A stretch of DNA of 64,000 nucleotides from Sphingobium indicum B90A. Its GTDB lineage: Bacteria > Pseudomonadota > Alphaproteobacteria > Sphingomonadales > Sphingomonadaceae. Of the stretch, positions 4,804 to 23,784 are shown one piece after another; positions within the stretch are counted from its first letter, which is position 1; each line of letters begins with the position of its first letter. A program made the translations under genes and the position numbers. Under the pieces are notes generated by a model. It was not told the origin of the DNA, searched no databases, and worked only from the letters and a program-made list of their open reading frames with translations. The stretch covers positions 50,001-114,000 of the forward strand of contig NZ_CP013071.1 in the NCBI RefSeq assembly GCF_000264945.2, given 5' to 3'.

Positions 4804-4820
4804 ATCATATACTATAGGAT
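4804..4820. promoter_or_regulatory. Putative GntR/FCD operator, receptor gene
   Basis: ATCATATA-C-TATAGGAT, a near-palindrome of 17 bases matching 7 of 8 positions between its arms. The same element recurs in front of five other transcription starts in the cluster, including the gntR gene. Binding is inferred from the repeated pattern. Confidence 0.7.
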
Positions 4821-4903
4821 TTCTGGTTGAACTTGCGGTTTTCCGAAGAGGCTGAAAGCCTCTGGATCGTCGAGCTTTGGCGATGCGCTCCGGGGAGCGC
4901 GCT

Positions 4904-5873
4904 TCAGTGCGGCTGGAAGCTGTGCAGGCCGCGGGGATAAGGGTTGATCGCGACGCGCGTGGCCATCCGGCCCGGTTGCCCGCCGAAGCTGGCCCGGTGC
5001 CACCGGCCCTGCGCGGCAGTCACGACGTCGCCAGGCGACGCGGTGAAGAACGGCACGCCTTCGATCTGGTAATCGATATTGCCTTCCATGACGAACCAGA
5101 ATTCATCATAGCCGAAGTGGAAATGGCCCAGGTCGCTGGCCGGCGGAGTCTGGATGCCGGCGCCGCGAATATTGTTCACGAACAGATGATCGCCGGCAAT
5201 GAAGGCGCCAGCCCTTTGCCCGCCCGTCACCACATCCTTGTAATAGTCGAGATAGGGCCGGTCGGCGGCGCCGTAACGCCCGTCCCCACCCATCAGGGCG
5301 GCCTTCACATAGGTGAAGCCGGGCACGTCCTTCGGCTTGTCCGGCCTGGTCGCGACGGGATAGAGCGGCACGTCGCCCGCGCCGTGCACCTCCAGCCACA
5401 GCGCCGGCTCCTCGCCCACGCTTTCCAGCGTGAACGGCAGGCGGAAGGGGATGTTGACCTCCCCGCCCTTGACCGCGACGAAGGGTTCCTGCCCCTTGAT
5501 GCTGACCCGGAGCTGCCCGCCCCAGACGATGAGGGCGGTGGCGTTGTCGGCGTACATCAGCGGTTCGGTGCGCTGCCCGGCGGCCATCTGGCGCCAGTCC
5601 GCCTCCAGGTCGCGGTTGCGGACGATGGCGTGCGTCCAGCTTTTCTCGCCCTTGTGCGCGGCCAATATGTCCGCCAGCTTCCACCAGGGACGATTGGGCG
5701 CGTCATAGGCGCGCGGCGGCGTCCGCTTGGGCGACCAGGCATTTTCCATGGGCGGCCGGGCGGGCGGCGTGGATGGGGCCTGGGACGGGGACGGCGCGGA
5801 TGTCTGGGCCGCCGCCCCCAGGATGAGCAGAGCGGGCGAACACAGATAGAATGCGGCCTTGACGATTGCCATC
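4904..5873 (-). CDS. Exported cupin-domain protein
   Basis: A 322-residue protein with a signal peptide (AFYLCSPALLILGAAAQ) and a Pro/Ser-rich linker. A cupin metal-binding motif is visible near the C-terminus: LGHFHFGYDEFWFVMEG, giving HxH and a Glu before a Gly. Cupins bind a metal ion and serve as dioxygenases, isomerases or binding proteins; the activity here cannot be assigned. The ATG at 5873 is chosen because GGGGAGGATTG precedes it; an upstream start at 5908 lacks this. It is divergent from the small secreted protein at 5977, and the shared intergenic region carries an operator-like palindrome. Periplasmic location and a role in the cluster's pathway are inferred. Confidence 0.8.
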
Positions 5874-5911
5874 AATCCTCCCCTTGAGCAGACTTTTGCG
5901 TCTTGCAATTG

Positions 5912-5928
5912 ATCATATAGGATATGAT
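5912..5928. promoter_or_regulatory. Putative GntR/FCD operator between divergent genes
   Basis: ATCATATA-G-GATATGAT, 7 of 8 arm positions symmetric. It lies 39 bases from the cupin start on the minus strand and 49 from the GTG start on the plus strand, so one site could govern both. Confidence 0.75.
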
Positions 5929-5976
5929 GTTAGGGCATTAGTCAAACAAATTATGACATGAAAAGAGGAGAAGGGC

Positions 5977-6447
5977 GTGAAGCACATCTGGAAACTGGCC
6001 GTGATCGGCGGGATTGCGTTGTTTCCGCAATGCGTCGCCCATGCGCAGGAAGATGGCTGCGCGCGTCTGGACGACCCGTCGGAACGCCTGGCCTGCTATG
6101 ATCGCCGGTCGGGCCGCGCGGCGGCGGACAGCCGCCCGATTCCCCTCCCCGCGTCGCCCGCACCGGGAGCGGCGGCGGCAGCGGCAGAAAGCGACAGCTA
6201 TCAGGACCGTCGCGACGCGCTCAAGAGCCGCACGGATTTCGACAGCCGGCTGAAGGCCGCCGTCCCGTTGCGGCATGGCTATTACCGGCTGGAGCTGGAA
6301 GACGGCACCGCCTATGACATGACGACCGTCGGGCCGCCGCCGCCGGTCGGCGCCATGGTCCATGTCCGTCGCACGCCCTTCGGCACCACCTTCTTCGACA
6401 TGGAGGGACGCAAGCCCTTCACCGTCAGGCTGTCGCGCCGCCAATAG
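5977..6447 (+). CDS. Small secreted protein with a 'C-x-L-x-x-x-x-x-R-L-x-C-Y-D' motif
   Basis: A 156-residue protein with a clear signal peptide (WKLAVIGGIALFPQCVAHAQ). Just after cleavage it has CARLDDPSERLACYD, a two-cysteine motif seen in several small periplasmic proteins of unknown role, followed by an Ala/Pro-rich linker and a compact C-terminal domain (YYRLELEDGTAYDMTT). The start is GTG with AGAGGAGAAG immediately upstream; no in-frame ATG fits better. Its last 23 bases overlap the end of the convergent MFS gene. The operator-like site upstream ties it to the catabolic cluster, but I cannot assign a function. Confidence 0.7.
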   Translation: MKHIWKLAVIGGIALFPQCVAHAQEDGCARLDDPSERLACYDRRSGRAAADSRPIPLPASPAPGAAAAAAESDSYQDRRDALKSRTDFDSRLKAAVPLRHGYYRLELEDGTAYDMTTVGPPPPVGAMVHVRRTPFGTTFFDMEGRKPFTVRLSRRQ

Positions 6448-7744
6448 GCCCCAGGGCGCCCTCCCCGGCCGGCTGCTCCAGCAGCCGGTTCGGGTCGACG
6501 ACCGCCCAGGCGAGCACCCCCGCCAGCACCACGGCGGACCCCGCGATGAAGGCCGCCGTCCAGCCGAACTGCGCGGCGATCATCGGCGTCAGGGTGGAGG
6601 TCAGCGCCCCGCCGATCTGGCACCCCATGTTCATGAAGCCGGACACGACGCCGCTATGCGGCCCGGCGATGTCCGCCGTCACCGACCAGAAGGAGCTTTG
6701 CGAGAGGTAGATCGCGCCTGCTCCGCCCGCCAGGATCAGCACCGCCAGCGGGGCGTTGTCGACCATCGATCCGCCGGCCAGGAACAGGCCGGTGAGGACG
6801 AAGGACAGGATGCCCAGCCCGGATCGTCCCCAATAGAGGCCATGGCGCGCCGACACCCGGTCGTTGATCACGCCGCCCAGCAGGCAGCCGAAGGTCATGC
6901 ACAGGAAGGGCAGCATGGAGAAGACGGCGCTCGACTTGACGTCCAGGTGCCGCGCTTCGGCCAGGTAGATGAAGAACCAGCTGAAGAAGATCCAGATGAC
7001 GTAGCCGAAGGCGAAATAGCTGACGAACAGGCCCCAGACGTTGCGGCTGGAAAATATGGCGCCCCAGGGAATGGGTCCGGACGACGCCCTTTTGGCTGGG
7101 GGCAGGCCCGCCTCAATATGCGCGAGTTCGGCCGCGTTGACGGAGGGGTGCTCCTGCGGCCGGTCCCGCGCCAGCCAGAACCAGATGGCGGCGGCGGCAA
7201 GGCCCAGGACCGCGCAGACATAAAAGGATGCGCGCCAGCCGCCCCACAGGATGATCGCGGTGATCAGCGGCGGCGTGATGCCCGACCCGGCCCCCACCCC
7301 GGCGAAGATCCACCCGTTCGCCTTTCCCCTCTCCTGCGCGGGTATCCAGCGCGACAGGAACTGGTTGCCGCATGGATAGACGACCGATTCGCCGATGCCG
7401 AGCGCGAAGCGGGTCAGCGCCAGCAGCAGCAGCGCGGCGCTGCCCTCCGGATGGATGAGCGCCGTCGCGGCGGTGAACACGCCCCACCACAGCAGCGCGC
7501 CAGTCAGCACGATGCGCGGGCCGTAGCGCGCCGCGAGCCAGCCCGCCGGCACCTGGAACAGCGCATAGCCGATCAGGAAGGCGCTGAAGACCCAGCCCAG
7601 CTGGACCTGGTCTATGGCATATTCCTTCCGCATCTCCACGCCAGCGACGGAAATATTGGTGCGATCGAGAAAGGCGATCGCGCTGATGATGAACAACAGG
7701 AAGATCAGGCCCAGCCTGACCCTGGACCGCGCGGCTCCATTCAT
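6425..7744 (-). CDS. MFS transporter, anion:cation symporter (ACS) type
   Basis: A 439-residue inner-membrane protein with about twelve hydrophobic segments. Near the start it has AFLDRTNISVAG, the signature of the ACS family, whose members import organic anions such as sugar acids, phthalates or tartrate with protons. The ATG at 7744 follows GGGAGGGATGTT, so earlier in-frame starts are not needed. An operator-like palindrome lies 31 bases upstream and is shared with the divergent cupin gene. Import of an acidic substrate or intermediate of the cluster is the likely role. Confidence 0.88.
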   Translation of the reverse strand: MNGAARSRVRLGLIFLLFIISAIAFLDRTNISVAGVEMRKEYAIDQVQLGWVFSAFLIGYALFQVPAGWLAARYGPRIVLTGALLWWGVFTAATALIHPEGSAALLLLALTRFALGIGESVVYPCGNQFLSRWIPAQERGKANGWIFAGVGAGSGITPPLITAIILWGGWRASFYVCAVLGLAAAAIWFWLARDRPQEHPSVNAAELAHIEAGLPPAKRASSGPIPWGAIFSSRNVWGLFVSYFAFGYVIWIFFSWFFIYLAEARHLDVKSSAVFSMLPFLCMTFGCLLGGVINDRVSARHGLYWGRSGLGILSFVLTGLFLAGGSMVDNAPLAVLILAGGAGAIYLSQSSFWSVTADIAGPHSGVVSGFMNMGCQIGGALTSTLTPMIAAQFGWTAAFIAGSAVVLAGVLAWAVVDPNRLLEQPAGEGALGPIGGATA

Positions 7745-7774
7745 AACATCCCTCCCGCTTGGCTTCTGCGCCAA

Positions 7775-7791
7775 ACAATATACTATATGAT
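7775..7791. promoter_or_regulatory. Putative GntR/FCD operator between MFS and cupin genes
   Basis: ACAATATA-C-TATATGAT: the right arm matches the consensus fully and the left arm 6 of 8. It sits midway between two divergent genes of the cluster. Confidence 0.7.
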
Positions 7792-7851
7792 TCGAGACAA
7801 GATGATGTATGTCCGCATAAGCAGGCAAGAGCAAGCATTGGAGAGGGGAAG

Positions 7852-8769
7852 ATGGGCATGGGCACGCCGCGCATGGCGCTGGTCGCAGCGCTGATGGCCT
7901 TTGGCGGAACCGCCGCGCAGGCCGCGCCGCCGCTGGCGCAACGCATCGGCCATACCGATCCGGACGGCATGCGGGTCGCGAACGGCGTCCATGGCGGCGC
8001 GGGATCGATGAAGTTCGGGCCGCTGCTGGGCGCCGCTGCGCTCAGCACCAACCTCATCTTCGTCCATCGCGGGACGATCGCGCCGAAAAGCGGCATCGGC
8101 CAGCATTTCCACAATGATTGCGAGGAGATGTTCGTCATCCTCGACGGGGAGGCGGAATTCACCATCGACGGGCGCACCTCTCGCCTGGCCGGGCCGGCCG
8201 GCGTGCCCGACCGCATGGGGCATGCCCATGGCATCTACAATCCGACCGACCGGCCGCTGCAATGGCTGAACGTCAATGTCGGCATGACCAAGAGCTACGA
8301 CAATTTCGATCTGGGCGACCCGCGCACCGGCGCGACGCTCGATCCCGTGCCGCAGTTCATCAGCATGCGGCTGGACCGCGCCCTGCTGAAGCCGGCGGCG
8401 GCAGCGCTGCCCGACGCGACCGGGGCCGTTCTCTATCGCCGCGCCCTGGGGCCCGCGGTGTTCTCCACGCCCTGGTCCTATGTCGACCATATCCTTCTGC
8501 CCGCCGGCGCGACGCTGGGCCGCCGGACGCAGGCGGACATGAGCGAGGTCTATTATGCGATCTCCGGCACGGGCGAGGTGACGCTGGGCGGGGAGACCGC
8601 GCCCATCAGGGCGGGCGACGCCGTGCCCGTCGACCTGGGCGAGGCGCGGGCGATCCGCCAGACGGGCGGCCAGCCGCTCGAACTCATGGTGATCGGCGTG
8701 GCGCGCGATCTGGCGGCGAAGGCCCGCTACCGCGCCGAAGCCGAGGCGCGCCTGCGACCGCGCCGATAG
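7852..8769 (+). CDS. Exported two-domain (bicupin) protein
   Basis: A 305-residue protein with a signal peptide (ALVAALMAFGGTAAQA) and two cupin folds. The first carries a complete metal motif, GQHFHNDCEEMFVILDG at about residues 83-99; the second (around ADMSEVYYAISGTGEVTLGG) lacks the HxH pair, so probably only one metal site is active. The start is either 7852 or 7858; GAGAGGGG is 3 bases from the first and 9 from the second, so 7858 is equally possible. The SMP-30-like gene follows after 57 bases on the same strand, suggesting co-transcription from the promoter next to the operator at 7775. Confidence 0.8.
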   Translation: MGMGTPRMALVAALMAFGGTAAQAAPPLAQRIGHTDPDGMRVANGVHGGAGSMKFGPLLGAAALSTNLIFVHRGTIAPKSGIGQHFHNDCEEMFVILDGEAEFTIDGRTSRLAGPAGVPDRMGHAHGIYNPTDRPLQWLNVNVGMTKSYDNFDLGDPRTGATLDPVPQFISMRLDRALLKPAAAALPDATGAVLYRRALGPAVFSTPWSYVDHILLPAGATLGRRTQADMSEVYYAISGTGEVTLGGETAPIRAGDAVPVDLGEARAIRQTGGQPLELMVIGVARDLAAKARYRAEAEARLRPRR

Positions 8770-8826
8770 CGTCGCGCCGGTCCTCTCGCCTCCCCCCTTT
8801 CCATCATCCAAGAAGGAACCAAGCCC

Positions 8827-9843
8827 ATGTCCTCCCGCCTTCGCGCCGCCCTGCTCGCCGCGGCGCTCTGCCCCCTGACCGCGCCGTCGCTGGCGCAGGC
8901 GCCCGCCGCAGCGGCGGCCGCGCCCTCCTTCGAACGGCTGGACCCGGCGTTCGATGCGATCATCGCGCCCGACACGCCGATCGAGCGGGTGGCGACCGGC
9001 TTCGGCTTTACGGAGGGGCCGCTCTGGCATGAGGGCCGGCTCTGGTTCTCCGACGTGACCGGGGACAAGATGCGGGCCGTCACCCCGGACGGGAAGGTCG
9101 AGGAACTGCTCGCCAATTCGGGCGGCCTGCCCAATCCCCCGGCGGGCGCCAGCATCGGTTCCAACGGCATGGCCCCCGCCCCCGACGGCACGGTGCTGAT
9201 GACGCAGATGGGCGCGCGCCGCATCGTCAGGGTCGGCAAGGACGGCAGCCTGCAACCCTTTCTGTCGGACTATCAGGGCAAGCGGCTGAACAGCCCCAAC
9301 GACCTGGTCTATGACAAGAGCGGGGCGCTGTGGTTCACCGATCCGCCCTTCGGCCTGTTCAACGGCATGGACAAGGACCCGGCCAAGGAACTGCCCTATA
9401 ACGCCGTGTTCCGCTATGCCGACGGCCGGCTGACGCCGGTCATCACCGACATGACGCTGCCCAACGGCATCGGCTTCTCGCCCGATTTCAAGACCCTCTA
9501 TGTCGGCAATTACGGGCCGGACATGTATATCCGCGCCTATGACGTGCGCCCGGACGGCGGCCTGTCCGCCCCGCGCGAGCTGATCCGCTTCCCCGGCGGT
9601 CGCGGCGGGCCGGACGGGCTGAAGGTCGACAGCGCGGGCAATATCTGGACGACGGGGCCGGGCGGCATCCGCATCATCACGCCGCAGGGCAAGGTGCTGG
9701 GGCAGATCAGGCTGCCCGAAACGGCGGCCAACCTGGCCTTCGCGGAGGATGGGCACATGGTCTACATCACCGGCAGCACCAGCATCTATCGCCTGCGCAG
9801 CAAGGTGAAGGGGATGCTGCCGCTCTACGCCAGGGGTCAATGA
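8827..9843 (+). CDS. SMP-30/gluconolactonase-family periplasmic hydrolase
   Basis: A 338-residue protein with a signal peptide (LLAAALCPLTAPSLAQ) and a six-bladed beta-propeller. Metal-site signatures are visible: FTEGPLWHEGRLWFSD (Glu ligand), LNSPNDLVYDKSGALWFTD (Asn and Asp) and GGPDGLKVDSAGNIW. The family hydrolyses lactones or esters with a divalent metal. A lactonase after PQQ-linked oxidation of a cyclic alcohol or sugar-like substrate would make sense, because the dehydrogenases of this cluster are also periplasmic, but the substrate is unknown. AAGGA lies about 10 bases before the ATG. Confidence 0.88.
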   Translation: MSSRLRAALLAAALCPLTAPSLAQAPAAAAAAPSFERLDPAFDAIIAPDTPIERVATGFGFTEGPLWHEGRLWFSDVTGDKMRAVTPDGKVEELLANSGGLPNPPAGASIGSNGMAPAPDGTVLMTQMGARRIVRVGKDGSLQPFLSDYQGKRLNSPNDLVYDKSGALWFTDPPFGLFNGMDKDPAKELPYNAVFRYADGRLTPVITDMTLPNGIGFSPDFKTLYVGNYGPDMYIRAYDVRPDGGLSAPRELIRFPGGRGGPDGLKVDSAGNIWTTGPGGIRIITPQGKVLGQIRLPETAANLAFAEDGHMVYITGSTSIYRLRSKVKGMLPLYARGQ

Positions 9844-9849
9844 AGGGCA

Positions 9850-9872
9850 GCGGGCGGCCACGCGCCGCCCGC
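9850..9872. terminator. Bidirectional hairpin between convergent genes
   Basis: GCGGGCGGC-CACGC-GCCGCCCGC, a perfect nine-base stem with five-base loop, lies between the stop codons of the SMP-30-like gene (+) and the cytochrome gene (-). There is no U-tract immediately after, so its strength is uncertain. Confidence 0.55.
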
Positions 9873-9888
9873 TTGAGCCGAAGCGCGT

Positions 9889-10218
9889 TTAACGGCCGCC
9901 CGCGCTCGGCGCGGCGCCAGGGGCGGGGGCATAGTTTTTCGCCAGATAGGCGGTGATCGTCTTGATCTCCTCCGGCGAGACCTCCGCCCCGCGATCGGCC
10001 ATGCCCTGCACGGTCGCCGCCCATTCCGCCTCGCTCCGCCGCTTCTGGAACACCTGCCCGGTCGTGTGGCAGAAGCCGCAGCGTTCATTGATCAGGTCCA
10101 GGCCGGGGCCGGGCGGCGGGGTCGCCGCGGCTACGGTGGCGGGCGCCTGCTGGGCCATCGCCCCCGCCCCGATCAGGGGCAGGGCAAGGGCCATGATCGT
10201 CAATCCGACTTTATGCAT
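9889..10218 (-). CDS. Small periplasmic cytochrome c
   Basis: A 109-residue protein with a signal peptide (LTIMALALPLIGAGAMAQ) and one haem c motif, CGFCH, at about residues 47-51. The C-terminal helix region (EIKTITAYLAKNYAP) is typical of class I cytochromes c. It lies 9 bases downstream of the PQQ-dehydrogenase gene on the same strand, so it is most likely the electron acceptor of that enzyme. The C-terminus ends in an Ala/Pro/Gly tail. Confidence 0.88.
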   Translation of the reverse strand: MHKVGLTIMALALPLIGAGAMAQQAPATVAAATPPPGPGLDLINERCGFCHTTGQVFQKRRSEAEWAATVQGMADRGAEVSPEEIKTITAYLAKNYAPAPGAAPSAGGR

Positions 10219-10227
10219 GTCATGTCC

Positions 10228-12153
10228 TCAAGGAAGCGCATAGGCCACCACCGCGTCGCTGGTGGCCGGTGAAAAGGCGAAGCCCCCCGTCGCCACGACG
10301 GCGACCATCTGCCGTTTCCCCGCGGCATAGGTCATCGGCGTCCCATAGCTGGAACCGGGCAGTTCCGCCGTCCAGAGCAGCTTGCCCGTCTTCGTTTCGA
10401 AGGCGCGGAAGCGCTGGTCCTTGGTCGCGCCGATGAAGGTCAGCCCGCCCGATGTCGTGAACGGCCCGCCCGCGCTGGTGATGCCCGCATCCTTGAGCGC
10501 GGGATGGCCGGTGTCGCCCAGGGGGCGGCGCCACGCCACCGCGCCCTTGACGACATCCACGGCCACCAGCTCGCCCCATGGCGGCTTGTGACAGGGGAAG
10601 CCGGTCTCCATGTCCGCGAAATAGGCGTAGCCGCCCTTCATGCCCCAGCTTCCGTCGGGCTGCTGCTCCAACTGCTGGGGGCTGGCGAGTTCGTTGAGGT
10701 TGATGACGTAAAGCCCCAGATCGGGGTCGAACGCGCCCCCGCCCCAGTCCGCGCCGCCCAGGCTGCCGGGGAAGAAGTTGATCGCGCTGTCGGCGCGCAG
10801 CGGCTGGAACGGCTTGCTGGGGGTGATGTTCAGCTTCTTGACCAGCGCCTCGCACCGGGCCTTCAGCTCCGGCGTGACGTCCAATATGTCGTCGGCATCG
10901 TAGGACAGGCGGGTCAGCGGCGGCGGCGCGACGGGCATGGGCTGGGTCGGCCAGGGCTGCTCGCCCGGCACGTCGGTCTCCGTCGGCACCGGCACTTCGC
11001 GCACGTCGAACAGCGGCTTGCCGGTCACGCGGTCCAGGATGAACATGATCGCCGTCTTGTTCATCGCCACCAGCGCCGGCGTGACCCGCCCGCCGCGTTT
11101 GATGTCGACCAGCGTCAGCGTCGGCAGGTCGAGATCCCAGATGTCGTGGTGCACGGTCTGGAAATGCCAGAGATATTTGCCGGTCGCCGCGTCCACCGCG
11201 ACCACGGAGTTGGAATAGAGATTGGCGCCCTTGCGGTCCGCGCCCCACCTGTCGAAGGTCGGCGCGCCGACGGGCAGATAGGCGATGCCGCGCTTTTCAT
11301 CGACCTGCACGAAGGTCCAGACATTGGTGCCCGACCGCGCCTTCGCGCTGTCCCCCTCCCAGGTCTCCGACCCCTTCTCCCCCGCCTGCGGGATGGTGTG
11401 GAAGGTCCAGACCAGCTTGCCGGTGCGCGCGTCCCAGGCGCGCACGTCGCCCGCCGCGCCCTTGACCGGCATTTCCTGCACCCGCGATCCGGTGATGACC
11501 AGATCCTTGTAGATGGCGGGCGGGCTGCTCATGCCCAGCGGCGCGGCGCGCAGGCCGTTCATCACCTCGGGCGTCTTCATGTTGACGATTCCCGCCTCCC
11601 CGAAGGCGGCGGCGGGCTGGCCGGTCGCGGCGTCGAGCGCGATCAGCTTGCCCGACCGCGTGCCGAAGAAGATGCGCGCCCCGTTCCCCCTGGCTCCGGG
11701 CCAATAGGCGACGCCGCGGGTCGAGGGCTGGTCCTTGTTCGCCAGCGTATAGGCCCAGCGTTCCTTCCCCGTCGCGGCGTCCAGCGCGACGACGCGATTA
11801 TAGGGCGTGGCGAGATACATGACGCCGTCGACCACCAACGGGGTCGCTTCCGACGCCGAAAACCCCGTGGCGAACTTGGCGCGCATGCCGTCGGGCATCG
11901 GCCCCGTATCCGCTGTCACGCCGGGCGGGCGCATATGATATACCCAGGCCTGCCGCAGCGTGGATACGTTGGCGGTGGTGATCTGCCTGAGCGGCGAATG
12001 GCGCGCGCCGCCGGGATCGCGGCCATAGGCGGCCCAGTCGGCGTCGGCGGACGGCGCCGCCCCGGCCGCGCCGCCCAGGGCGCTGGCGGCAACGGAAATC
12101 ATGGAGGCCAATGCGATGGACCGGCGGAACGAAGATGCGATTTTCAACGACAT
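10228..12153 (-). CDS. PQQ-dependent dehydrogenase (quinoprotein, glucose-DH-like)
   Basis: A 641-residue protein with a signal peptide and an eight-bladed propeller with the repeated W-type blades (e.g. LDAATGKERWAYTL, WDARTGKLVWTFH, VDAATGKYLWHF). The last blades, FRAFETKTGKLLWTAELPG followed by GTPMTYAAGKRQ, match the soluble quinoprotein glucose/alcohol dehydrogenase family. It should oxidise an alcohol in the periplasm using pyrroloquinoline quinone. No CxxCH motif is present, so it lacks a fused haem domain and depends on the adjacent cytochrome c. AGGAGAG precedes the ATG. The gene is divergent from the CoA-transferase gene with an operator-like palindrome between them. The substrate is not predictable. 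Confidence 0.9.
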   Translation of the reverse strand: MSLKIASSFRRSIALASMISVAASALGGAAGAAPSADADWAAYGRDPGGARHSPLRQITTANVSTLRQAWVYHMRPPGVTADTGPMPDGMRAKFATGFSASEATPLVVDGVMYLATPYNRVVALDAATGKERWAYTLANKDQPSTRGVAYWPGARGNGARIFFGTRSGKLIALDAATGQPAAAFGEAGIVNMKTPEVMNGLRAAPLGMSSPPAIYKDLVITGSRVQEMPVKGAAGDVRAWDARTGKLVWTFHTIPQAGEKGSETWEGDSAKARSGTNVWTFVQVDEKRGIAYLPVGAPTFDRWGADRKGANLYSNSVVAVDAATGKYLWHFQTVHHDIWDLDLPTLTLVDIKRGGRVTPALVAMNKTAIMFILDRVTGKPLFDVREVPVPTETDVPGEQPWPTQPMPVAPPPLTRLSYDADDILDVTPELKARCEALVKKLNITPSKPFQPLRADSAINFFPGSLGGADWGGGAFDPDLGLYVINLNELASPQQLEQQPDGSWGMKGGYAYFADMETGFPCHKPPWGELVAVDVVKGAVAWRRPLGDTGHPALKDAGITSAGGPFTTSGGLTFIGATKDQRFRAFETKTGKLLWTAELPGSSYGTPMTYAAGKRQMVAVVATGGFAFSPATSDAVVAYALP

Positions 12154-12234
12154 GCCTCTCCTGAAGGCGGGGGTTGACCTTTGGCCGACAAGCCCGGTTG
12201 TTCTTTTGTCTTAGTAATGCTAGCAGAGGGTTAA

Positions 12235-12251
12235 ATCATATACAATATGAT
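12235..12251. promoter_or_regulatory. Putative GntR/FCD operator between PQQ-DH and CoA-transferase genes
   Basis: ATCATATA-C-AATATGAT, 7 of 8 arm positions symmetric. It lies 82 bases from the PQQ-dehydrogenase start and 52 from the CoA-transferase start, so one site could control both divergent operons. Confidence 0.75.
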
Positions 12252-12302: not shown

Positions 12303-13490
12303 ATGGCGACGCTGCCGTTGGCCGGCATAAGGGTACTCGACATTTCTCAGGTCATGGCAGGCCCGTTCTGCTGCATGCTGCTGGGCGACATGGGCGCGGA
12401 CGTCATCAAGATCGAACCGCCAAAGACGGGCGATTCGACGCGCCACTCCATGGGATTCCGCCTGAAGGGGGAGGACAGCCCCGGCTTCCTGGCGCTCAAC
12501 CGCAACAAGCGCAGCATCGCCCTCAACCTGAAGGACGACGCCGATCGCGAAGTGCTCTATGCGCTGGTCAAGAGCGCCGACGTGCTGGTGGAAAATGCCC
12601 GCCCCGGCGTCGCGGCGCGGCTGGGCATCGACTATGACACCCTGGCCGCGATCAATCCGCGCCTCGTCTATGCCAGCATTTCCGGCTTCGGCCAGACCGG
12701 CCCTTGGGCACAGCGCCCCGGCTTCGACCTGATCGCGCAGGCCATGTCGGGCATTTTGAGCTCCAACGGCTTTCCCGGCATGGAACCGGCGAAGAACAGC
12801 ATCGCCGTGGCCGACCTGGGCGCGGGCCTGTTTTCGGCCTACGCCATTCTTTCCGCCATCATCGGCCGGGAAAAGAGCGGGCAGGGCCAATATATCGACG
12901 CATCGCTGCTGGAAGCGGCGCTGGGCCTCTCGATCTGGGAAACGACCGAGCTTTGGGGCACGGGCAAGTCGCCCACGCCCATCGGATCGGCCAACCGCAT
13001 GTCCGCCCCCTATCAGGCGGTGCAGGCGTCGGACGGCTGGTTCGTCATCGGCGCGGCGAATCAGGGCCTCTGGCTGACCTTCCTGCAAGTGCTCGGCCGG
13101 CCGGAGCTTCAGGACGATCCGCGCTATTCCACCAACGCCGCCCGCGTGACGAACCGCATCGCCCTGATCGAGGATCTGGCGCCGACCTTCCTCACCCGCA
13201 CGCGGGAGGAATGGATCGACGCCCTGCTGGCGGCGGGCGTCCCCGCCGCGCCGATCCTGGACTATGGCGAGGCGGTCGGCAGCGAGCAGGCCGTCGCCCG
13301 CGACATGGTGATGCAGGTGCCCCATCCGGTGGAGGGCGAGTTCAAGGCGCTCGGCTTCCCGGTCAAGATGCGCGGCACGCCGCAGGAGGTCCGCCTGCCC
13401 CCGCCGCTGCTCGACGAGCATGGCGAGCTGATCCGGCGGGAACTGGCGGAAAGGGGCCTGCTCGCCCCGCAGCGGGAAGCGGCGAAATGA
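12303..13490 (+). CDS. Class III (CaiB/BaiF) CoA-transferase
   Basis: A 395-residue protein with the family's N-terminus (LAGIRVLDISQVMAGPFC, then GADVIKIEPPKTGD) and the catalytic-Asp region AVADLGAGLFSAYA at about residues 166-179. Family members move CoA from a donor such as succinyl-CoA to a carboxylic acid. In this cluster it probably activates the acid made by the alcohol and aldehyde dehydrogenases. The ATG at 12303 follows GGGAGAAGGA. The stop overlaps the start of the enoyl-CoA hydratase gene (ATGA), so the two are translationally coupled. Confidence 0.92.
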   Translation: MATLPLAGIRVLDISQVMAGPFCCMLLGDMGADVIKIEPPKTGDSTRHSMGFRLKGEDSPGFLALNRNKRSIALNLKDDADREVLYALVKSADVLVENARPGVAARLGIDYDTLAAINPRLVYASISGFGQTGPWAQRPGFDLIAQAMSGILSSNGFPGMEPAKNSIAVADLGAGLFSAYAILSAIIGREKSGQGQYIDASLLEAALGLSIWETTELWGTGKSPTPIGSANRMSAPYQAVQASDGWFVIGAANQGLWLTFLQVLGRPELQDDPRYSTNAARVTNRIALIEDLAPTFLTRTREEWIDALLAAGVPAAPILDYGEAVGSEQAVARDMVMQVPHPVEGEFKALGFPVKMRGTPQEVRLPPPLLDEHGELIRRELAERGLLAPQREAAK

Positions 13491-14269: not shown

Positions 14270-14270
14270 C

Positions 14271-14787: not shown

Positions 14788-14803
14788 CAAGCCACTCCTG
14801 CCA

Positions 14804-16873: not shown

Positions 16874-16914
16874 CGCGCTTTAGGCCCCTTCCCTCTCTCT
16901 TTCCCGGCTGCGGC

Positions 16915-18399
16915 TTACCAGCTCACCGCGATATATTTGGCTTCGCAATATTCCAGCAGGCCGTGATGCCCGCCCTCGCGCCCCAGGCCGCTCTGCTTGA
17001 CGCCGCCGAAGGGCGCGGCGGCGTCCGACACCAGGCCGCGATTGACCGCCACCATGCCCGCCTCGATCCGCTCCGCCAGTTGCAGCCCGCGCTTGAGGTC
17101 GGCGGTATAGACATAGGCGGCCAGGCCATATTCGGTCGCATTGGCCAGCGCCACCGCCTCCGCCGGATCGTCGAACGGGATCACCGCCGCGACCGGGCCG
17201 AACACCTCCGTCGTCAATATCTCCGACCCCGGCTGGACGTTCGCGATCACCGAGGGCGGGTAGAAGAAGCCCGCGCCCTCCGGCGTCCTGCCGCCCAGCC
17301 TGACCTCCGCGCCGCGGCCGACCGCGTCCGCCACCAGATGCTCGATCTTGTCGATCGCCTGCCGGTTGATCATCGCGCCGCACTGGGTCGCGCTTTCCGT
17401 GCCGGGGCCCATCTTCATCGCGCCCATGCGCTCCGCCAGCTTCGCGACGAAGGCGTCATGGATGCCGCGCTGGACGTAGAAGCGGTTGGCCGCCGTGCAC
17501 GCCTCCCCCGCATTGCGCATCTTGGCGACCATCGCGCCCTCGATCGCCTCGTCGATGTCGGCATCGTCCAGCACCAGGAACGGCGCGTTGCCGCCCAGTT
17601 CCATGGACGAGCTGATGACCTGGTCCGCCGCCTGGCGCAACAGGATGCGGCCGACCTCGGTCGATCCGGTGAAGGACAGCTTGCGCACGCGCGGGTCGTG
17701 CAGGATGCCGCTGCACAGCGGGCCCGGATCGCTGCTGTTGACGACATTGACCACGCCCGCCGGCACGCCCGCCCGGCGCATGATCTCCGCCACGGCGAGC
17801 GCCGTCAGCGGCGTTTCCTCGGCCGGTTTCAGGATGCAGGTGCAGCCCGCCGCCAGCGCCGGGGCGATCTTGCGCGTCGCCATCGCCGCCGGGAAGTTCC
17901 AGGGCGTGATCAGCAGGGCGATGCCGATGGGCTGATATTGCACCATGATGCGGTTGGCGCCGGACGGCGAGACGGCCAGTTCCCCGTTGATGCGCACCGC
18001 TTCCTCCGCATACCAGCGGAAGAATTCGGCGGCATAGGCCACCTCCCCCCGCGCATCGGGCAGCGCCTTGCCATTTTCCAGCGATATGAGCTGCGCCAGC
18101 CATTCCTGCTCCGCCATCATCGCATGGAAGCAGGCGAGCAATATGTCGGCGCGCCTGCGCGGCGGGGTCGCGGCCCAGTCCGCGGCGGCCGCGGCGGCGG
18201 CGTCCACGGCGGCGATGCCCTCGGCCGGACTGGCGTCGGCGACGGAGGTCAGCACCGTCTCCGTCGCGGGGTTGAGGATGTCGATGCGCCTGCCGCTGGC
18301 GGCGGGCACCCACGCCTCCCCGATCAGCAGGTCGGTCGGAATGGCGAAGGGGCCGGCATGGCCGTCGGTCGTCGTGCAGCTATAGCTTTGCGTCGTCAT
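16915..18399 (-). CDS. NAD(P)-dependent aldehyde dehydrogenase
   Basis: A 494-residue enzyme of the succinate-semialdehyde dehydrogenase-like group. Visible landmarks are the cofactor motif ITPWNFPAAMATRKIAPALA, the KPAEETPLTALA segment, SFTGSTEVGR, the catalytic Glu in MELGGNAPFLV and the catalytic Cys in GEACTAANRF. It would oxidise an aldehyde, made by the alcohol dehydrogenases of this operon, to a carboxylic acid in the cytoplasm. It lies 20 bases downstream of the iron-containing alcohol dehydrogenase gene. The true aldehyde is not determined. Confidence 0.92.
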   Translation of the reverse strand: MTTQSYSCTTTDGHAGPFAIPTDLLIGEAWVPAASGRRIDILNPATETVLTSVADASPAEGIAAVDAAAAAAADWAATPPRRRADILLACFHAMMAEQEWLAQLISLENGKALPDARGEVAYAAEFFRWYAEEAVRINGELAVSPSGANRIMVQYQPIGIALLITPWNFPAAMATRKIAPALAAGCTCILKPAEETPLTALAVAEIMRRAGVPAGVVNVVNSSDPGPLCSGILHDPRVRKLSFTGSTEVGRILLRQAADQVISSSMELGGNAPFLVLDDADIDEAIEGAMVAKMRNAGEACTAANRFYVQRGIHDAFVAKLAERMGAMKMGPGTESATQCGAMINRQAIDKIEHLVADAVGRGAEVRLGGRTPEGAGFFYPPSVIANVQPGSEILTTEVFGPVAAVIPFDDPAEAVALANATEYGLAAYVYTADLKRGLQLAERIEAGMVAVNRGLVSDAAAPFGGVKQSGLGREGGHHGLLEYCEAKYIAVSW

Positions 18400-18419
18400 G
18401 GGAAACCTTGTTCGAGAAG

Positions 18420-19655
18420 TCAGGCTGACTTGAGCGCCGCCCGCTCGCCGGCAAAGGCGGCGCGGGTGATGCTCTGCATCGCCGGGAGATCGAGGGGACG
18501 GGGATTGTTCTTGACCAGCCTGGCGGCGTTCAGGGCGTTTTCCGCCACGAAGTCCTGCTGCTCCGCCTTCAGCCCCAGCGCCGCCAGGGAGCGGGGGATG
18601 TCGACGCTGCCCAGCAGGTCGGCGACGGCATCGATGAACGCCTGAGACATGTCCTCCTCCGCCGCGTCGGGCAGTCCCACCGTCCGCGCCAGTTCGGCGA
18701 AGGCCGGGGCGCAGAAGGGACGGTTGAACTGCATGACATAGGGCAGCAGCGTCGCCACCCCGTCGCCATGCGCGGTGTGCGTCAGGTTGCCGACCGGATA
18801 TTGCAGCGCATGCGCCGCCGCCGTGCCCGCCGTGCCGAAGGCGCAGCCCGCCGCCAGCGCCGCCAGCATCAGCCCCTCGCGCGCCTCCATGTCGCCGCCG
18901 TCGCGATAGGCCCGCTCCAGGAAGCGGAAGATGTTGTCGACCGCCAGCCGGGCGAAATGGTCCGACAACAGGTTCTTGCCCACGAACACATGATCCTGCG
19001 TCAGCATCGGGTCGGCCGGGCGCGCCAGCGTCGTATAGGCCTCCACCGCATGGGTCAGCGCGTCGGCGCCGGAACAGGCGGTCAGGGCGGGCGGGCAGGT
19101 GGCGGTCAGTTCCGGATCGCAGATCGCGACCAGCGGGATCAGATGCGGGCTGGCGATGCCGACCTTCACCCCGCGCTCGTCGTCGGACACCACCGCGACC
19201 GGCGTCACTTCCGATCCGGTGCCCGCCGTCGTCGGCATGGCGATCAGCGGCATGACCGGGCCGGGCACGGCGAATTCGCCATAATAGGACCGGATGTCGC
19301 CGCCATGGGTCAGCAGCACGGCGACGACCTTGGCCATGTCCATCGAACTGCCGCCGCCGATGCCGACGACCAGATCGGGGGCGAAGCCGCGCACTTCGTC
19401 GACGCAGGCATTGATCGATCCGATCGGCAGGTCGGGGATCGTCCGGTCGAAGACCCGGACCTCCAGCCCATGGGCTTTCAGGTCCGCGACCATGGCGTGG
19501 AATTCGGGCTGGGCGGCCTGCCGCTCATCGGTGCAGAGCAGGGCGCGGCTGCCCAGCTTGCCGGCGGCGGAGCCGAGCGCGTGGCGCTGCCCGCGCCCGA
19601 ACAGGACGGAACGGGGCAGGCGCAGCGCGCCGAAGGCGGTATGGACGTCGCTCAC
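18420..19655 (-). CDS. Iron-containing alcohol dehydrogenase
   Basis: A 411-residue group III alcohol dehydrogenase. It shows GGGSSMDMAKV (NAD-binding), the metal-site segment ADALTHAVEAYTTL, and later histidines in HALQYPVGNLTHTAHGDG. Such enzymes interconvert alcohols and aldehydes or ketones with NAD(P)H. Its first bases overlap the end of the upstream cytochrome c gene by four, so both are translated together. Presence of a cytoplasmic alcohol dehydrogenase beside two periplasmic PQQ enzymes suggests two alcohol-oxidation steps or two compartments. Confidence 0.9.
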   Translation of the reverse strand: MSDVHTAFGALRLPRSVLFGRGQRHALGSAAGKLGSRALLCTDERQAAQPEFHAMVADLKAHGLEVRVFDRTIPDLPIGSINACVDEVRGFAPDLVVGIGGGSSMDMAKVVAVLLTHGGDIRSYYGEFAVPGPVMPLIAMPTTAGTGSEVTPVAVVSDDERGVKVGIASPHLIPLVAICDPELTATCPPALTACSGADALTHAVEAYTTLARPADPMLTQDHVFVGKNLLSDHFARLAVDNIFRFLERAYRDGGDMEAREGLMLAALAAGCAFGTAGTAAAHALQYPVGNLTHTAHGDGVATLLPYVMQFNRPFCAPAFAELARTVGLPDAAEEDMSQAFIDAVADLLGSVDIPRSLAALGLKAEQQDFVAENALNAARLVKNNPRPLDLPAMQSITRAAFAGERAALKSA

Positions 19656-20050
19656 TTCTTCCTACCATCCGCGCCAAATTGTTTCAGATAGGCGATGATG
19701 TCGGCGCGATCCTGCGCGGCGGCCATGCCGGGGAAGATCATCTTCGTGCCGGGGACCAGCTTCGACGGGCCTTGCAGCAGCTTGTCGATGCTGGTCTCGT
19801 CCCATTTGATGCCCGACGCCTTCATCGCGGGCGAATAGCCATAGCCGCCTTGGCTGCCCGCCGCCCGGCCGACGACGCCGTTCAGCGACGGCCCCATGGC
19901 GCGCGCCGGGTTCGGCCCGACCTTGTGGCAGGCGGCGCAGCGCGCGAAAAGCTGCTGCCCATGCGCGGCATTTCCCTTCGGCGCGGGGGCGGCGACCGCC
20001 GCGCCGGCGATCACCGCGCCGATGCCCGCAGCGAATATCCAAGTCTTCAC
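19652..20050 (-). CDS. Class I cytochrome c (c2/c550-like)
   Basis: A 132-residue protein with a signal peptide (IFAAGIGAVIAGAAVAAPAP), a haem motif CAACHKVGPN, and the methionine-ligand region LVPGTKMIFPGM followed by a C-terminal helix (DRADIIAYLKQFG). It looks like a soluble mono-haem electron carrier. It is within the seven-gene operon and may pass electrons from the PQQ enzymes to a terminal oxidase. Confidence 0.9.
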   Translation of the reverse strand: MKTWIFAAGIGAVIAGAAVAAPAPKGNAAHGQQLFARCAACHKVGPNPARAMGPSLNGVVGRAAGSQGGYGYSPAMKASGIKWDETSIDKLLQGPSKLVPGTKMIFPGMAAAQDRADIIAYLKQFGADGRKK

Positions 20051-20089
20051 CTAAGCAACCTCCTGTCGTGCGCGCCATGCGCGCGATGT

Positions 20090-21424
20090 TCAGATTTCTT
20101 CCGGGGCCCGCGCCCCCTGCCCGTCTTCCAGCCTGCGCGAGGCGTCGATGCGCAGGAACAGCGCCGCCGCGATCAGGCAGAGGACGGAAAGAACCGCAAA
20201 GGCGGCGAACCAGCCGCTCATGCTGACGATATAGCCGGTGACCGCCGCCGCGACCGCCGCGCCGCTGTTGCCCAGCGTGTTCATGACCGCCGACACCGAC
20301 CCCGCATATTCGCCGCCGATGTCGAGCGTCACAGCCCAGGACACGCCGACCGTCAGCTCCAGCCCGAACAGCGCGATGCAGAAGCACAGGATGCTGGCCA
20401 CATGCCCGTCCATGGCGGCGGCCAGCGGGATCATCGCGGCCGCCGTCAGGAAGCCGACCACGGCGACCGAGCGGCGCGCCATCTTCAGCCCCGCGCCGCG
20501 CTTCACCAGCAGGTCCGACGCCCATCCGCCCATCAGGTCGCCCACCACCCCCGCCATCAGCGGCAGGCTGGCGAACAGGCCCATCAACGCGATGTCGAAC
20601 CCCCGCGCATCGTGCAGATATTTGGGGAACCAGGTCAGGAAGATGTTGATGCAATAGGCGTAGCAGAAATACATGGCCGACAGCACCCAGAGCTGCGAAT
20701 TGGCCAGCAGGTGCCGCCACGGCACGCTCACCCGCGCCCGGCCCGCGCCCAGCGCGCCCTCGATCATCGCCAGTTCGGCGCCGTTGACCGCCGGATGCTC
20801 GCGCGGCGTGTCGCGATAGTACCAAAACCACAGGGCCGCCCAGCCGATGCCGATCAGCGCGAAGGCCATGAAGGGCATGCGCCAGCCGAACTGGACGATC
20901 AGCAGCGCGACGAACACCGGCGTCACCGCCCCGCCCAGCCGCGCTCCCGCATGGGTGACGCCCTGCGCCCAGCCGCGTTCCGACGGCAGCATCCAGCGCG
21001 ACAAGGACCGGGTGGCGATGGGAAATGCCCCCGCCTCCCCCATGCCGAAGAGGAAGCGGCACACCATCATCGACCCGGCCGACCAGGTCAGCGCCGTGGC
21101 GGCGGTGAAGGTCGACCACCAGAGCACCACGCCCGTCAGCGCCCGGCGCGGCCCGAACCTGTCGCCCAGCCAGCCGCCGGGTATCTGGAACAGCGCATAG
21201 GCGATGGAGAAGGACGCGAAGATCCAGCCCATCGTCACGGGCGAGAAGCCATATTCCTTCTCGATCACCGGGGCCGCCGTGGCGATCACGACGCGGTCCA
21301 TATAGGTGATGAGATAGGCCAGCACCGTCAGCCACAGGACGACATGGCGCGCCCGCGTCGGGCGCGCCGCGCCGGCTCCGGCGGCGGCGGCGCGCGGTTC
21401 CGCGACGCTTGCCTCGCCGGTCAC
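20090..21424 (-). CDS. MFS transporter, second ACS-like copy
   Basis: A 444-residue inner-membrane protein with about twelve hydrophobic segments and motifs such as YMDRVVIATAAPVIEKEYG and GGWLGDRFGPRRALTG typical of ACS-type importers. The start is GTG at 21424, whose last bases overlap the stop of the amidohydrolase gene (GTGA); no ATG lies near. It resembles the transporter at 6425 in topology and in the HPAVNGAELAMIEGALG loop (compare HPSVNAAELAHIEAGLP there), so they look like paralogues. Confidence 0.85.
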   Translation of the reverse strand: MTGEASVAEPRAAAAGAGAARPTRARHVVLWLTVLAYLITYMDRVVIATAAPVIEKEYGFSPVTMGWIFASFSIAYALFQIPGGWLGDRFGPRRALTGVVLWWSTFTAATALTWSAGSMMVCRFLFGMGEAGAFPIATRSLSRWMLPSERGWAQGVTHAGARLGGAVTPVFVALLIVQFGWRMPFMAFALIGIGWAALWFWYYRDTPREHPAVNGAELAMIEGALGAGRARVSVPWRHLLANSQLWVLSAMYFCYAYCINIFLTWFPKYLHDARGFDIALMGLFASLPLMAGVVGDLMGGWASDLLVKRGAGLKMARRSVAVVGFLTAAAMIPLAAAMDGHVASILCFCIALFGLELTVGVSWAVTLDIGGEYAGSVSAVMNTLGNSGAAVAAAVTGYIVSMSGWFAAFAVLSVLCLIAAALFLRIDASRRLEDGQGARAPEEI

Positions 21425-22803
21425 GGGCGGGGTCCGCAGGCATCGGCGGCGCGGCCGGTGCAGGTCTGCCAGATGGTCGGCACCTTGTTGCCGGCGATAT
21501 AGACGGCGTCGATGGCGCGGGTGTTGCGGATGTCCGCCGTGGGATCGCGGTCCAGCACCAGCAGGTCGGCCCATTTGCCCGGCGCGACCGTGCCGATGTC
21601 CCTGGCCCCCATGAATTCCGCATTGGCGCTGGTCGCCGCGGTGATCGCCTGCATCGGCGTCACACCGGCCTTCACCATCAGTTCCAGTTCCCAATGCGCG
21701 AAATAGCCGGGGAAGCGCGCCGTCGGGCCGCTGTCCGTGCCCATGCCATATCGGATGCCCGCCTTCGCCTCCGCCGCGAAATTGTCCATCGCATATTGCA
21801 GGGTGGGCGCATATTTGGGGAAATTGGGCGCCGCGCCCAGCTTCGCCGCCCGCTCCGGACTGGCCAGTTCCTTCAGCACGGCGGGCGTCACCCCCCGCGC
21901 GAAGAAGGGATCGTCCAGGAAGGGCAGCGTCTTGTAGGTGAAGGACGCCTCGCGGCTCAGCGTCGCGGCCATCTGCCACACGCTCCTGGCCTTCATCTGG
22001 CCCAGCAGCGCGTCGTCAACGGCGCGGTCGCGCACGGAATGGGCGAAGGCGTCCACGCCTTCCCGCGTCAGTTCGGCGGCGTTGGAATAATAGAAGATAT
22101 GCGCGACCGCCTTCTTCCCGTCCTTGTGCGCCTGGTCGATCACGGCGCTGCTGATCGGGGGCGGCATGCGTTCCTCCAGCATGCCGAATTCGTCGTCGAC
22201 CCACAGCTTGATGAGGTCGGCGCCCTTGGCCGCCTCCCTGTCCACCATCGCCCGCGCCTCTTCGGGCGTGGCGACCGACTGGTCGAGGCCGGCGACACCG
22301 CCATAGCTGCCCTTGAAGACCACGCCCTGCCCCACGGTATAGACCCGCGACATCGCCGCGCGGCCCTTGCGCCGCTGCTGGATCGGGAAGATCATGTCCT
22401 TTTCCGTCCCCAGCGTCTGGACGGTGGTGACGCCGTAGGCGGCGTAGGTGCGGAGCTGCTTCTCGATATTTTCCGGCGTCTGATATTGCAGGTTCTGGGT
22501 GATGCCGTCGACCAGCCCCAGATGGACATGGCTGTCGATCAGGCCGGGCATCAGATATTTGCCCTTCAGCCTTTCGACCTTCGCGCCCGCCGGCGCCTTG
22601 AGCTTCGCGACCGGCCCGACCCATTTGATCCGCCCGTCCGTCATGACCAGCGCCTGGTTCGCCGCGGGCGCCTTTCCGGTGCCGTCGATCAGCGTGAAGT
22701 CGCGCAGCACCCTGGTTTCGGCCATCGCCGTCGCCGGAAGTCCGGCGAGCATCGCGACCGTCAGGCTGACAAGTGAAAAACCGGCTTTCATGGCTGACCG
22801 CAT
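21421..22803 (-). CDS. Exported metal-dependent amidohydrolase, first gene of the operon
   Basis: A 460-residue amidohydrolase-superfamily protein of the imidazolonepropionase-like type with a signal peptide (SLTVAMLAGLPATAMAET). Metal-site elements visible are LIDSHVHLG (HxH), LIKLWVDDE, KAVAHIFYY, DAFAHSV and YGMGTDSGP (the final Asp). It hydrolyses amide, ester or related bonds of an unknown substrate. The ATG at 22803 has GGAGAGG about 7 bases upstream; longer forms exist but would place the operator inside the gene. It opens a run of seven genes down to 14311. Confidence 0.82.
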   Translation of the reverse strand: MRSAMKAGFSLVSLTVAMLAGLPATAMAETRVLRDFTLIDGTGKAPAANQALVMTDGRIKWVGPVAKLKAPAGAKVERLKGKYLMPGLIDSHVHLGLVDGITQNLQYQTPENIEKQLRTYAAYGVTTVQTLGTEKDMIFPIQQRRKGRAAMSRVYTVGQGVVFKGSYGGVAGLDQSVATPEEARAMVDREAAKGADLIKLWVDDEFGMLEERMPPPISSAVIDQAHKDGKKAVAHIFYYSNAAELTREGVDAFAHSVRDRAVDDALLGQMKARSVWQMAATLSREASFTYKTLPFLDDPFFARGVTPAVLKELASPERAAKLGAAPNFPKYAPTLQYAMDNFAAEAKAGIRYGMGTDSGPTARFPGYFAHWELELMVKAGVTPMQAITAATSANAEFMGARDIGTVAPGKWADLLVLDRDPTADIRNTRAIDAVYIAGNKVPTIWQTCTGRAADACGPRP

Positions 22804-22824
22804 ATCCATCCTCTCCAGACCTAT

Positions 22825-22841
22825 TTCATATCCTATATGAT
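22825..22841. promoter_or_regulatory. Putative GntR/FCD operator of the seven-gene operon
   Basis: TTCATATC-C-TATATGAT; right arm matches the consensus and the left arm matches 6 of 8. It is 22 bases upstream of the amidohydrolase start and downstream of the gntR gene. Confidence 0.72.
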
Positions 22842-23014
22842 CTGGTAAGCCCGTGGTAAGTGGTTGCCGCAGGCGCGTCAAGGGCCTTTCCCACCTTGTC
22901 GAACGGTCGGGCGGCCCGCGCCGCGCATCATTCCGAAAGCCGGTGCCAAGGACGCGACCGCCATGGCCCGCCCGTCCCCGGCCGGCGGGTTCGCGCTTCA
23001 GGCGGCCATGGCCG

Positions 23015-23740
23015 TCAGCGGGGCGAGGTGCCGTTCGCCCGGTCCATCCGCTGCTGAGAACAGGTCAGATGGTCGCGCACCGACTGCTCCGCCGCGACGG
23101 GATCGTGCGCCAGCAGGGCGGCGATGATCGCCTGATGCTCCCGCGCCGCCACTTCGGGCGCATTGGGCTGGGCGCTGTTCTGGTAGAGCGATCGGAAGAT
23201 CTGGAGATGCGCGTGCAGCCGCTCGATCGTCTCCTCGATCAGGCGGTTGCCGCTGCCCTTGGCGATCAGCCGATGGAGCAGCGCGTCCGCCTCCGCGAAG
23301 CGGGCATAGGCCTGCTCGTCGCGCTCGACGACCGCGTCCATGTCCGCCTGGATCGACTGGAGGATGGAGAGCGTCTCGTCGTCCATCTGCTCGGCGGCGC
23401 GGGCGGCGGCATAGGGTTCGATCAGCAGGCGCAGCGTGTAGAGGTCATGCACCTCCTCCGGCGTCATCTGCGGGCTGGCGCGGTAGCCGACATTGGTGGT
23501 CTTGTAGACCAGCTTCTCCGCCTCCAACTGGCTCAGCGCCTCGCGAATCGGGGTCTGCGAAATGCCGAGCTGCCGCGCCACGGTATCGATGGGGATGCGT
23601 TCGCCCGGCGCGATCTTCACCGTCATCAGCATGGAGAGAAGATGCTCATAGGCGCGCTCCACCAGCGTCGGGCCGGAAGCGGCGCGCGCTGTGGGACCGA
23701 TGGCACTGGCAGGCTGTGACATATTGTGCAGGTCGGACAT
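23015..23740 (-). CDS. GntR-family (FCD subfamily) transcriptional regulator
   Basis: A 241-residue regulator. A winged helix-turn-helix occupies about residues 25-95, with LGISQTPIREALSQLE as the recognition region. The C-terminal all-helical FCD domain shows the histidines expected for ligand or metal binding (ADALLHRLIA, REHQAIIAALL, VRDHL). FCD regulators usually repress catabolic genes until an acidic substrate or intermediate binds. The gene sits at the edge of the cluster and has a weaker copy of the shared palindrome 28 bases upstream, which suggests autoregulation. It is the natural candidate to bind all six sites. Confidence 0.9.
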   Translation of the reverse strand: MSDLHNMSQPASAIGPTARAASGPTLVERAYEHLLSMLMTVKIAPGERIPIDTVARQLGISQTPIREALSQLEAEKLVYKTTNVGYRASPQMTPEEVHDLYTLRLLIEPYAAARAAEQMDDETLSILQSIQADMDAVVERDEQAYARFAEADALLHRLIAKGSGNRLIEETIERLHAHLQIFRSLYQNSAQPNAPEVAAREHQAIIAALLAHDPVAAEQSVRDHLTCSQQRMDRANGTSPR

Positions 23741-23767
23741 GATCGCCGCTTATAGGGTCGGATACGG

Positions 23768-23784
23768 AACATATAGGATATTTT
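23768..23784. promoter_or_regulatory. Weak putative autoregulatory operator of gntR
   Basis: AACATATA-G-GATATTTT; the core ATATA-G-GATAT agrees with the other sites while the outer arm is degenerate. It lies 28 bases upstream of the regulator start. Confidence 0.5.

Follow-up and report, generated by a model that had tools for sequence, protein, structure and literature searches.

The 64,000-nucleotide stretch of Sphingobium indicum B90A analysed here (contig NZ_CP013071.1, positions 50,001 to 114,000 of the forward strand; referred to below as the window) contains six copies of a 17-bp palindrome, with the core CATAT-NNN-ATATG, spread over a cluster of catabolic genes. Judged from sequence comparisons, the six palindromes very probably serve as operators for an FCD-type GntR regulator whose gene lies at 23015-23740 in the same cluster; the regulator would bind them as a dimer, most likely repress its own gene together with the surrounding ones, and be released by a metabolite. 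All six sites have the core AT-NNN-AT in place of the GT-NNN-AC of the family, and the regulator would match this core with Gln62, which takes the place of the G-reading arginine.

The six palindromic sites

An earlier reading of the window, made from the letters alone (the sequence-only reading), had listed six 17-mers, all of which were located where it had placed them (Table 1). By our own gene calls they are entirely non-coding, in agreement with their proposed placement in 5' gaps, and this in a region (4786-23845) in which non-coding DNA makes up 1062 of 19060 bases (5.6 %). They precede each of the targets that had been named: the receptor gene, the cupin genes, a transporter gene, the pyrroloquinoline quinone (PQQ)-dehydrogenase and CoA-transferase operons, the seven-gene operon and gntR. 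Their proximity to start codons was also correctly seen, with the distances of 19-82 nt becoming 18-81 nt when measured to the nearest plausible starts of our own calls.

The six copies far exceed chance. At up to three mismatches, 12 matches (including one shifted overlap at 22830) were found in the window against 0.08 expected from shuffled sequences, both strands being counted. A matrix built from the six sites gave them scores of 26.4-31.6 bits. When each was left out in turn, scores of 20.1-30.6 bits were obtained, and at each of these scores only members of the six matched in the window; 4 Mb of first-order simulated sequence contained a single place of at least 20 bits and none of at least 22 bits. 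The own genome (G000, 3.95 Mb, in which the window belongs to contig C2) has seven distinct places with at most two mismatches, five of which lie in the cluster and two on contig C1, at 2423428 and 3647326. The site at 23768 (site 6) has three mismatches, a number shared by 14 places on contig C1, so that the mismatch count alone does not distinguish it. Left out of the matrix, it scored 20.1 bits and was beaten in the window by the other five only, and it is kept in relatives.

Conservation in related genomes

The sites are kept above background in orthologous promoters. In every alignment, with the relatives G012, G045 and G039 and with S. ummariense, site identity was 15-17 of 17 bases, compared with 62%-97% in the flanks. 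Summed over the sites, 102/102 bases were identical in G012 (flanks 492/578, 85%), 99/102 in G045 (flanks 427/559, 76%) and, for four sites, 66/68 in G039 (flanks 309/389, 79%), in which the receptor site falls beyond the contig end; the one site aligned in S. ummariense gave 17/17 (flanks 56/78). Counterparts of site 6 scoring 26.4 bits in G039 (L051/L070) and 24.5 bits in S. ummariense (L052) lie outside the alignments.

The site between gntR and the seven-gene operon was found at all 15 named Sphingobium and Sphingomonas loci, with 25.2-28.5 bits. The Sphingomonas regulators are 70-75% identical to that of the window, and seven Sphingomonas loci that were checked largely retain the operon genes. 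Ten of the 11 named Sphingomonas loci also have a second, weaker site (16.4-20.4 bits) about 5 kb upstream of gntR, and regulon targets therefore seem to differ between the genera. In L053 (4935-6187) this second site lies directly upstream of a gene for an exported putative esterase, which was checked in this locus only. Its equivalents are present in nine other Sphingomonas loci, L054-L062.

Co-occurrence of regulator and motif

FCD loci were collected by searching the relatives, the family and the genus. Wherever the regulator had an identity of at least 58%, the examined locus had one or more sites of at least 20.6 bits close to the gene. Three loci with regulators of 42-44% identity did not exceed 13.2 bits, and 24 loci with regulators of 26-34% identity (L090-L113) did not exceed 17.0 bits; weaker or related sites occur in some additional relatives (38-45% identity). 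Two of these, L114 and L115, belong to other alphaproteobacterial families and have sites of 24.2 and 25.3 bits, and in both the regulator gene adjoins genes for an iron-type alcohol dehydrogenase (Fe-ADH) and an aldehyde dehydrogenase (ALDH), a pair that may represent the ancestral target of the regulator. In G054, a TonB-receptor relative of 66% identity (328 residues, at a contig end) has its own 28.5-bit site on a contig other than those carrying the gntR genes. This genome bin, 80% complete, has two regulator copies (L071 and L073, 70% and 68% identity), and both are accompanied by an amidohydrolase gene and flanked by sites.

The chromosomal site at C1:2423428 precedes a ThuA/RraA operon. 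ThuA orthologues (E 1e-40) were found in 3 of 94 genomes of the genus, all three belonging to the five genomes that have a close orthologue of the regulator, and the operon is preceded by a site in all three (30.4, 27.9 and 24.0 bits). This gives a regulon that can be put to the test, with no fewer than seven sites: the six of the cluster and a chromosomal one. A gene for a GH67 alpha-glucuronidase and one for a LacI regulator are located near the ThuA/RraA operon (L064:7306-9498 and 6225-7265), which hints at plant-polysaccharide substrates. The weaker site at C1:3647326 (L065:6327-6343, 21.9 bits) lies upstream of genes for a major facilitator superfamily (MFS) transporter and a LigB-type dioxygenase.

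With the motif tracking regulator identity and the sites conserved in relatives, the proposal of the sequence-only reading that the cluster forms a regulon under the neighbouring FCD regulator finds good support in these comparisons. Several observations weigh against it. Site 6 is the weakest of the six, and most Sphingomonas loci keep only half-site-like matches at its place (9-18 bits where found, the rest being unclear). The Sphingobium genomes G001 and G003, with no regulator match at E 1e-30, have 7 and 6 scattered places with at most two mismatches, and G010 and G050, also of Sphingobium and likewise with no match at that threshold, have 1 and 3; the orthologue-carrying G012, G045 and G039, with 7, 7 and 6, have no more than G001 and G003. 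At no more than one mismatch, the four genomes with no regulator match have 1, 1, 0 and 1 places, compared with 5, 4 and 3 in G012, G045 and G039 and 2 in G054.

The genome of the window encodes three further FCD proteins, all chromosomal, and one of their genes (L079, at C1:2419312) is some 4 kb away from the ThuA site, which could therefore answer to that gene. A rival reading makes the sites as a whole the operators of a different regulator, such as one of these three, and the neighbouring gntR a passenger; in its favour, G001 has an Arg-type FCD gene (L068) with a partly similar 28.7-bit site after it. This reading is improbable, as motif strength follows the identity of the window regulator across genera, none of the other three FCD genes has a site of at least 14 bits within 1.5 kb of its FCD stretch, and in Sphingobium orthologues strong sites flank gntR on both sides. 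The palindrome in G001 (L068:6678-6694) can be placed in two registers, one with a GT core and one with an AT core.

The sites are AT-rich and close to starts, and could in part be promoter elements; TATACT in site 1 matches a -10 hexamer. That the repeats as a set are conserved promoter elements, or some other DNA feature with no dedicated regulator, is highly improbable given their two-fold symmetry over 17 bp, their concentration in one set of operons and their occurrence with the regulator. Promoter-like matches in the region numbered only 3, against 2.0 expected.

Proposed mode of action

In the mechanism that we favour, a dimer of the regulator would sit on each site just upstream of a start codon and most likely block transcription of gntR itself and of the genes for the receptor, the transporters, the cupins, the PQQ-dehydrogenases and the CoA, alcohol and aldehyde enzymes. 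A pathway metabolite binding to the FCD metal site would lift the repression. The two sites between divergent operons (sites 3 and 4) probably serve both sides; PMC4494728 describes a single site between divergent genes as usually doing so. FCD proteins can also activate, as is reported for FadR with fabA and fabB, and the regulator might be an activator or act in both ways, with the sites serving activation. We regard this as rather unlikely, since sites that are only 18-81 nt away from start codons should overlie the promoter or the transcription start, and the sites of Atu1419 and AlkR, in passages of PMC7797058 and PMC12042122, overlap -10 elements and repress.

The altered core of the candidate operators and Gln62

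The regulator has both an N-terminal GntR winged helix-turn-helix (wHTH) domain (PF00392, 45.5 bits; cut-off 27) and a C-terminal FCD domain (PF07729, 90.3 bits; cut-off 24.3). In an alignment that included the query, D152, H156 and H202 were present in 121/121 rows and H224 in 120/121, the histidines aligning with those of 7xp0 and 3sxy. The four residues correspond to the Asp/Asn and three His that form the metal site of many FCD proteins, and would bind a metal.

The sites do not conform to the family operator NyGTNxACNy. The core AT-NNN-AT is found in the six sites and in all 26 distinct matches of at least 19 bits, in which positions -3 and -2 are invariably A and T (AT instead of the family's GT), the matrix that collected them favouring these bases. 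The recognition-helix arginine is absent from the window regulator, which has Gln62 instead, as do all of the best 120 of the 563 homologues passing the E-value threshold. Atu1419 and 7xp0 have Arg at the aligned position and 3sxy, presumably the TM0439 entry, has Phe. The appeal of the sequence-only reading to family knowledge was only half right, since the sites do not have the sequence that the family consensus would lead one to expect.

The G of the GT...AC core of FadR-type GntR operators is read by an arginine of the recognition helix, according to passages of PMC4494728. Excerpts from PMC7797058 report that a G to A change in the Atu1419 operator, at the G contacted by Arg45, abolishes binding, and R45 mutants of AlkR bind poorly according to parts of PMC12042122. 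From these data and the sequences we infer that the AT core and Gln62 belong together, which would include a contact between the glutamine and adenine. BioR and NanR are published exceptions to the GntR operator consensus. As described in passages of PMC4494728, only regulators with palindromic sites fitting the consensus were kept in that study, BioR (TTATMKATAA) being set aside; it could therefore hardly have seen a switch of the core.

Recurrence of arginine loss with an AT core

In a second FCD clade (L197-L214, 18 loci), the box ACTAAT-RY-ATTAGT is found upstream of the regulator gene, exactly in 10 loci and as a near copy in two, with six loci lacking a box. None of the 18 regulators has Arg at the position in question (Q, S, V, A or L instead); the 12 boxed loci combine an AT-N2-AT core with Q, S, V or A. 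The clade was assembled by a search starting from its Gln-type member L174, which was not a blind choice, as an earlier palindrome test had given an A-core palindrome at this locus. A candidate BioR in G431 has His at the Arg position, and its gene adjoins bioY and two TTATCTATAA boxes; it is the single candidate examined, BioR boxes having been found at 1 of the 30 BioY loci scanned.

Many Arg-type FCD loci of the survey have TTGTATACAA or TTGTTGACAA boxes, and the palindrome was of the GT...AC type in 6 of the 7 Arg-type loci with a significant one. Palindromes were called by a fixed rule against simulated flanks, a single-locus test that is low in power. Before the second clade was added the pattern was weak, with 6 G-core, 1 A-core and 46 uncalled loci of the Arg type, 4 A-core, 2 G-core and 29 uncalled loci of the Gln/His type, and 1 A-core and 3 uncalled loci with other residues. 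With this clade, the non-Arg loci comprised 2 G-core, 16 A-core and 37 uncalled loci against 6, 1 and 46 of the Arg type (Fisher p = 0.001 among called loci, in a locus-level test that ignores relatedness). L174 and L184 duplicate the regulators of L197 and L206 and were left out of this final tally. Exceptions were L115, with His and a perfect GTATAC palindrome, L190, with Arg and an A-core call, and L087, in which a 21.6-bit AT-core site is accompanied by a palindrome with a GT core. The neighbourhoods of the Gln-type regulators L025, L089, L124, L104, L201, L206, L208, L211 and L213 yielded no clear inverted repeat.

In a tree of 99 regulators, from which 11 near-identical or duplicate rows and rows shorter than 170 aa were left out, the residue label needs six changes, and branches with good support make at least two of them unavoidable. 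The clade of the window regulator (23 rows, support 100/97) is separate from the ACTAAT clade (18 rows, 100/99), and the BioR candidate is on a long and less certain branch. It seems somewhat more probable than its opposite that, in FCD regulators, replacement of the signature arginine by Gln, His, Ser, Val or Ala has gone together with a change of the operator core, GT...AC giving way to AT...AT, at least twice and probably at least three times, in the window regulator, the ACTAAT clade and BioR. If so, a single residue would tell which class of operator many uncharacterised FCD regulators recognise, and BioR and other known departures from the GntR consensus would share a cause; a one-residue rule of operator recognition would be on offer for a very large regulator family.

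Genes of the cluster and plasmid context

The genes and sites of the cluster are listed in Table 1. The seven-gene operon is on the minus strand, downstream of gntR. No pathway emerged from searches of PDB sequences with the amidohydrolase, bicupin and SMP-30 proteins, from NCBIfam profiles or from literature searches; a 4-hydroxybutyrate or lactone route would be a guess from the Fe-ADH and the succinate-semialdehyde dehydrogenase (SSADH)-like ALDH. Farther along the window (26446-29945) a gene for a KaiC-like ATPase is followed by one for a PAS histidine kinase with a receiver domain.

Table 1 Operator-like sites and genes of the cluster (window positions)
Feature	Position	Strand	Remarks
Site 1, operator-like	4804..4820		5' of TonB-dependent receptor gene; 17/17 in G012, 15/17 in G045 (flanks 68%, 62%)
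Site 2	5912..5928		5' of exported cupin gene (minus), 48 nt ahead of open reading frame at 5977 (plus); 17/17 in G012, G045, G039
Site 3	7775..7791		Divergent region, MFS transporter 1 / cupin 2; 16-17/17 in three relatives
Site 4	12235..12251		Divergent region, PQQ-dehydrogenase/cytochrome c operon and CoA-transferase/enoyl-CoA hydratase operon; 17/17 in three relatives
Site 5	22825..22841		5' of seven-gene operon; found at 15/15 named loci
Site 6	23768..23784		5' of gntR (autoregulatory position); 17/17 in G012, G045
GntR/FCD regulator	23015..23740	-	Pfam GntR and FCD above cut-off; Gln62 where FadR/Atu1419 have Arg45
TonB-dependent receptor	1819..4785	-	
Cupin protein, signal-peptide-like N terminus	4904..5872	-	
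MFS transporter 1 (galactonate-transporter subfamily)	6425..7744	-	Subfamily below cut-off
Bicupin protein (cupin 2)	7852..8769	+	
SMP-30/gluconolactonase-like protein	8827..9843	+	Comes after second cupin gene
Cytochrome c-like protein	9889..10218	-	Below cut-off
PQQ-dependent dehydrogenase 1	10228..12153	-	
CoA-transferase family III	12303..13490	+	
Enoyl-CoA hydratase	13487..14266	+	Above cut-off for PRK06144
Exported amidohydrolase, operon gene 1	21421..22803	-	
MFS transporter 2, operon gene 2	20090..21445	-	
Cytochrome c550-like, operon gene 3	19655..20050	-	Below cut-off
Iron-type alcohol dehydrogenase, operon gene 4	18420..19655	-	
Aldehyde dehydrogenase, SSADH-like, operon gene 5	16915..18399	-	Below NCBIfam cut-offs
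PQQ-dependent dehydrogenase 2, operon gene 6	14804..16873	-	
Cytochrome c, operon gene 7	14311..14790	-	

The window from about 51500 to 60000 and the stretch to 64000 are, in their matched parts, 99.5-100% identical to plasmid stretches of Sphingobium sp. TKS, MI1205 and Sphingomonas sp. MM-1, which carry lindane-degradation genes (linC) and genes for an EthD-domain protein, an esterase and a TonB receptor, as well as IS6100. On the strength of this near-identity, the 139-kb contig C2 is probably a lin-type plasmid, and the catabolic gene set would then be plasmid-borne. In a search of plasmids, no record covered 80% of window positions 10000-24600, the best 20 of 41 records matching at most 8%.

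Comparison with known systems

In the open-licence literature searched, no published account of this regulon, of its half-site, of a Gln/Arg operator switch or of the gene cluster was found, and literature matches to CTAATATATTAG were unrelated by title and abstract.

The VanR-type FCD regulators Atu1419, TM0439 and AlkR resemble the window regulator in having a GntR wHTH and an FCD domain, the conserved Asp/His set and a palindrome near a start codon. The cores of the Atu1419 and AlkR operators are GTATAC and GTCAGAC, whereas the candidate operators described here have AT-NNN-AT, and Arg45 of Atu1419 corresponds to Gln62. The operator of E. coli FadR is likewise a 17-bp palindrome (its length is given in a passage of PMC7797058), but it combines a GT-NNN-AC core with Arg45 (passages of PMC4494728). 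In the operator of BioR, the biotin repressor of Alphaproteobacteria, A replaces the G of the family according to the same passages, as it does in the window sites; BioR differs from the window regulon in its 2-nt spacing, its half-site and its association with biotin genes. The ACTAAT clade shares the loss of the arginine and, in its 12 boxed loci, the AT core with the window regulator, but forms a clade of its own with another half-site.

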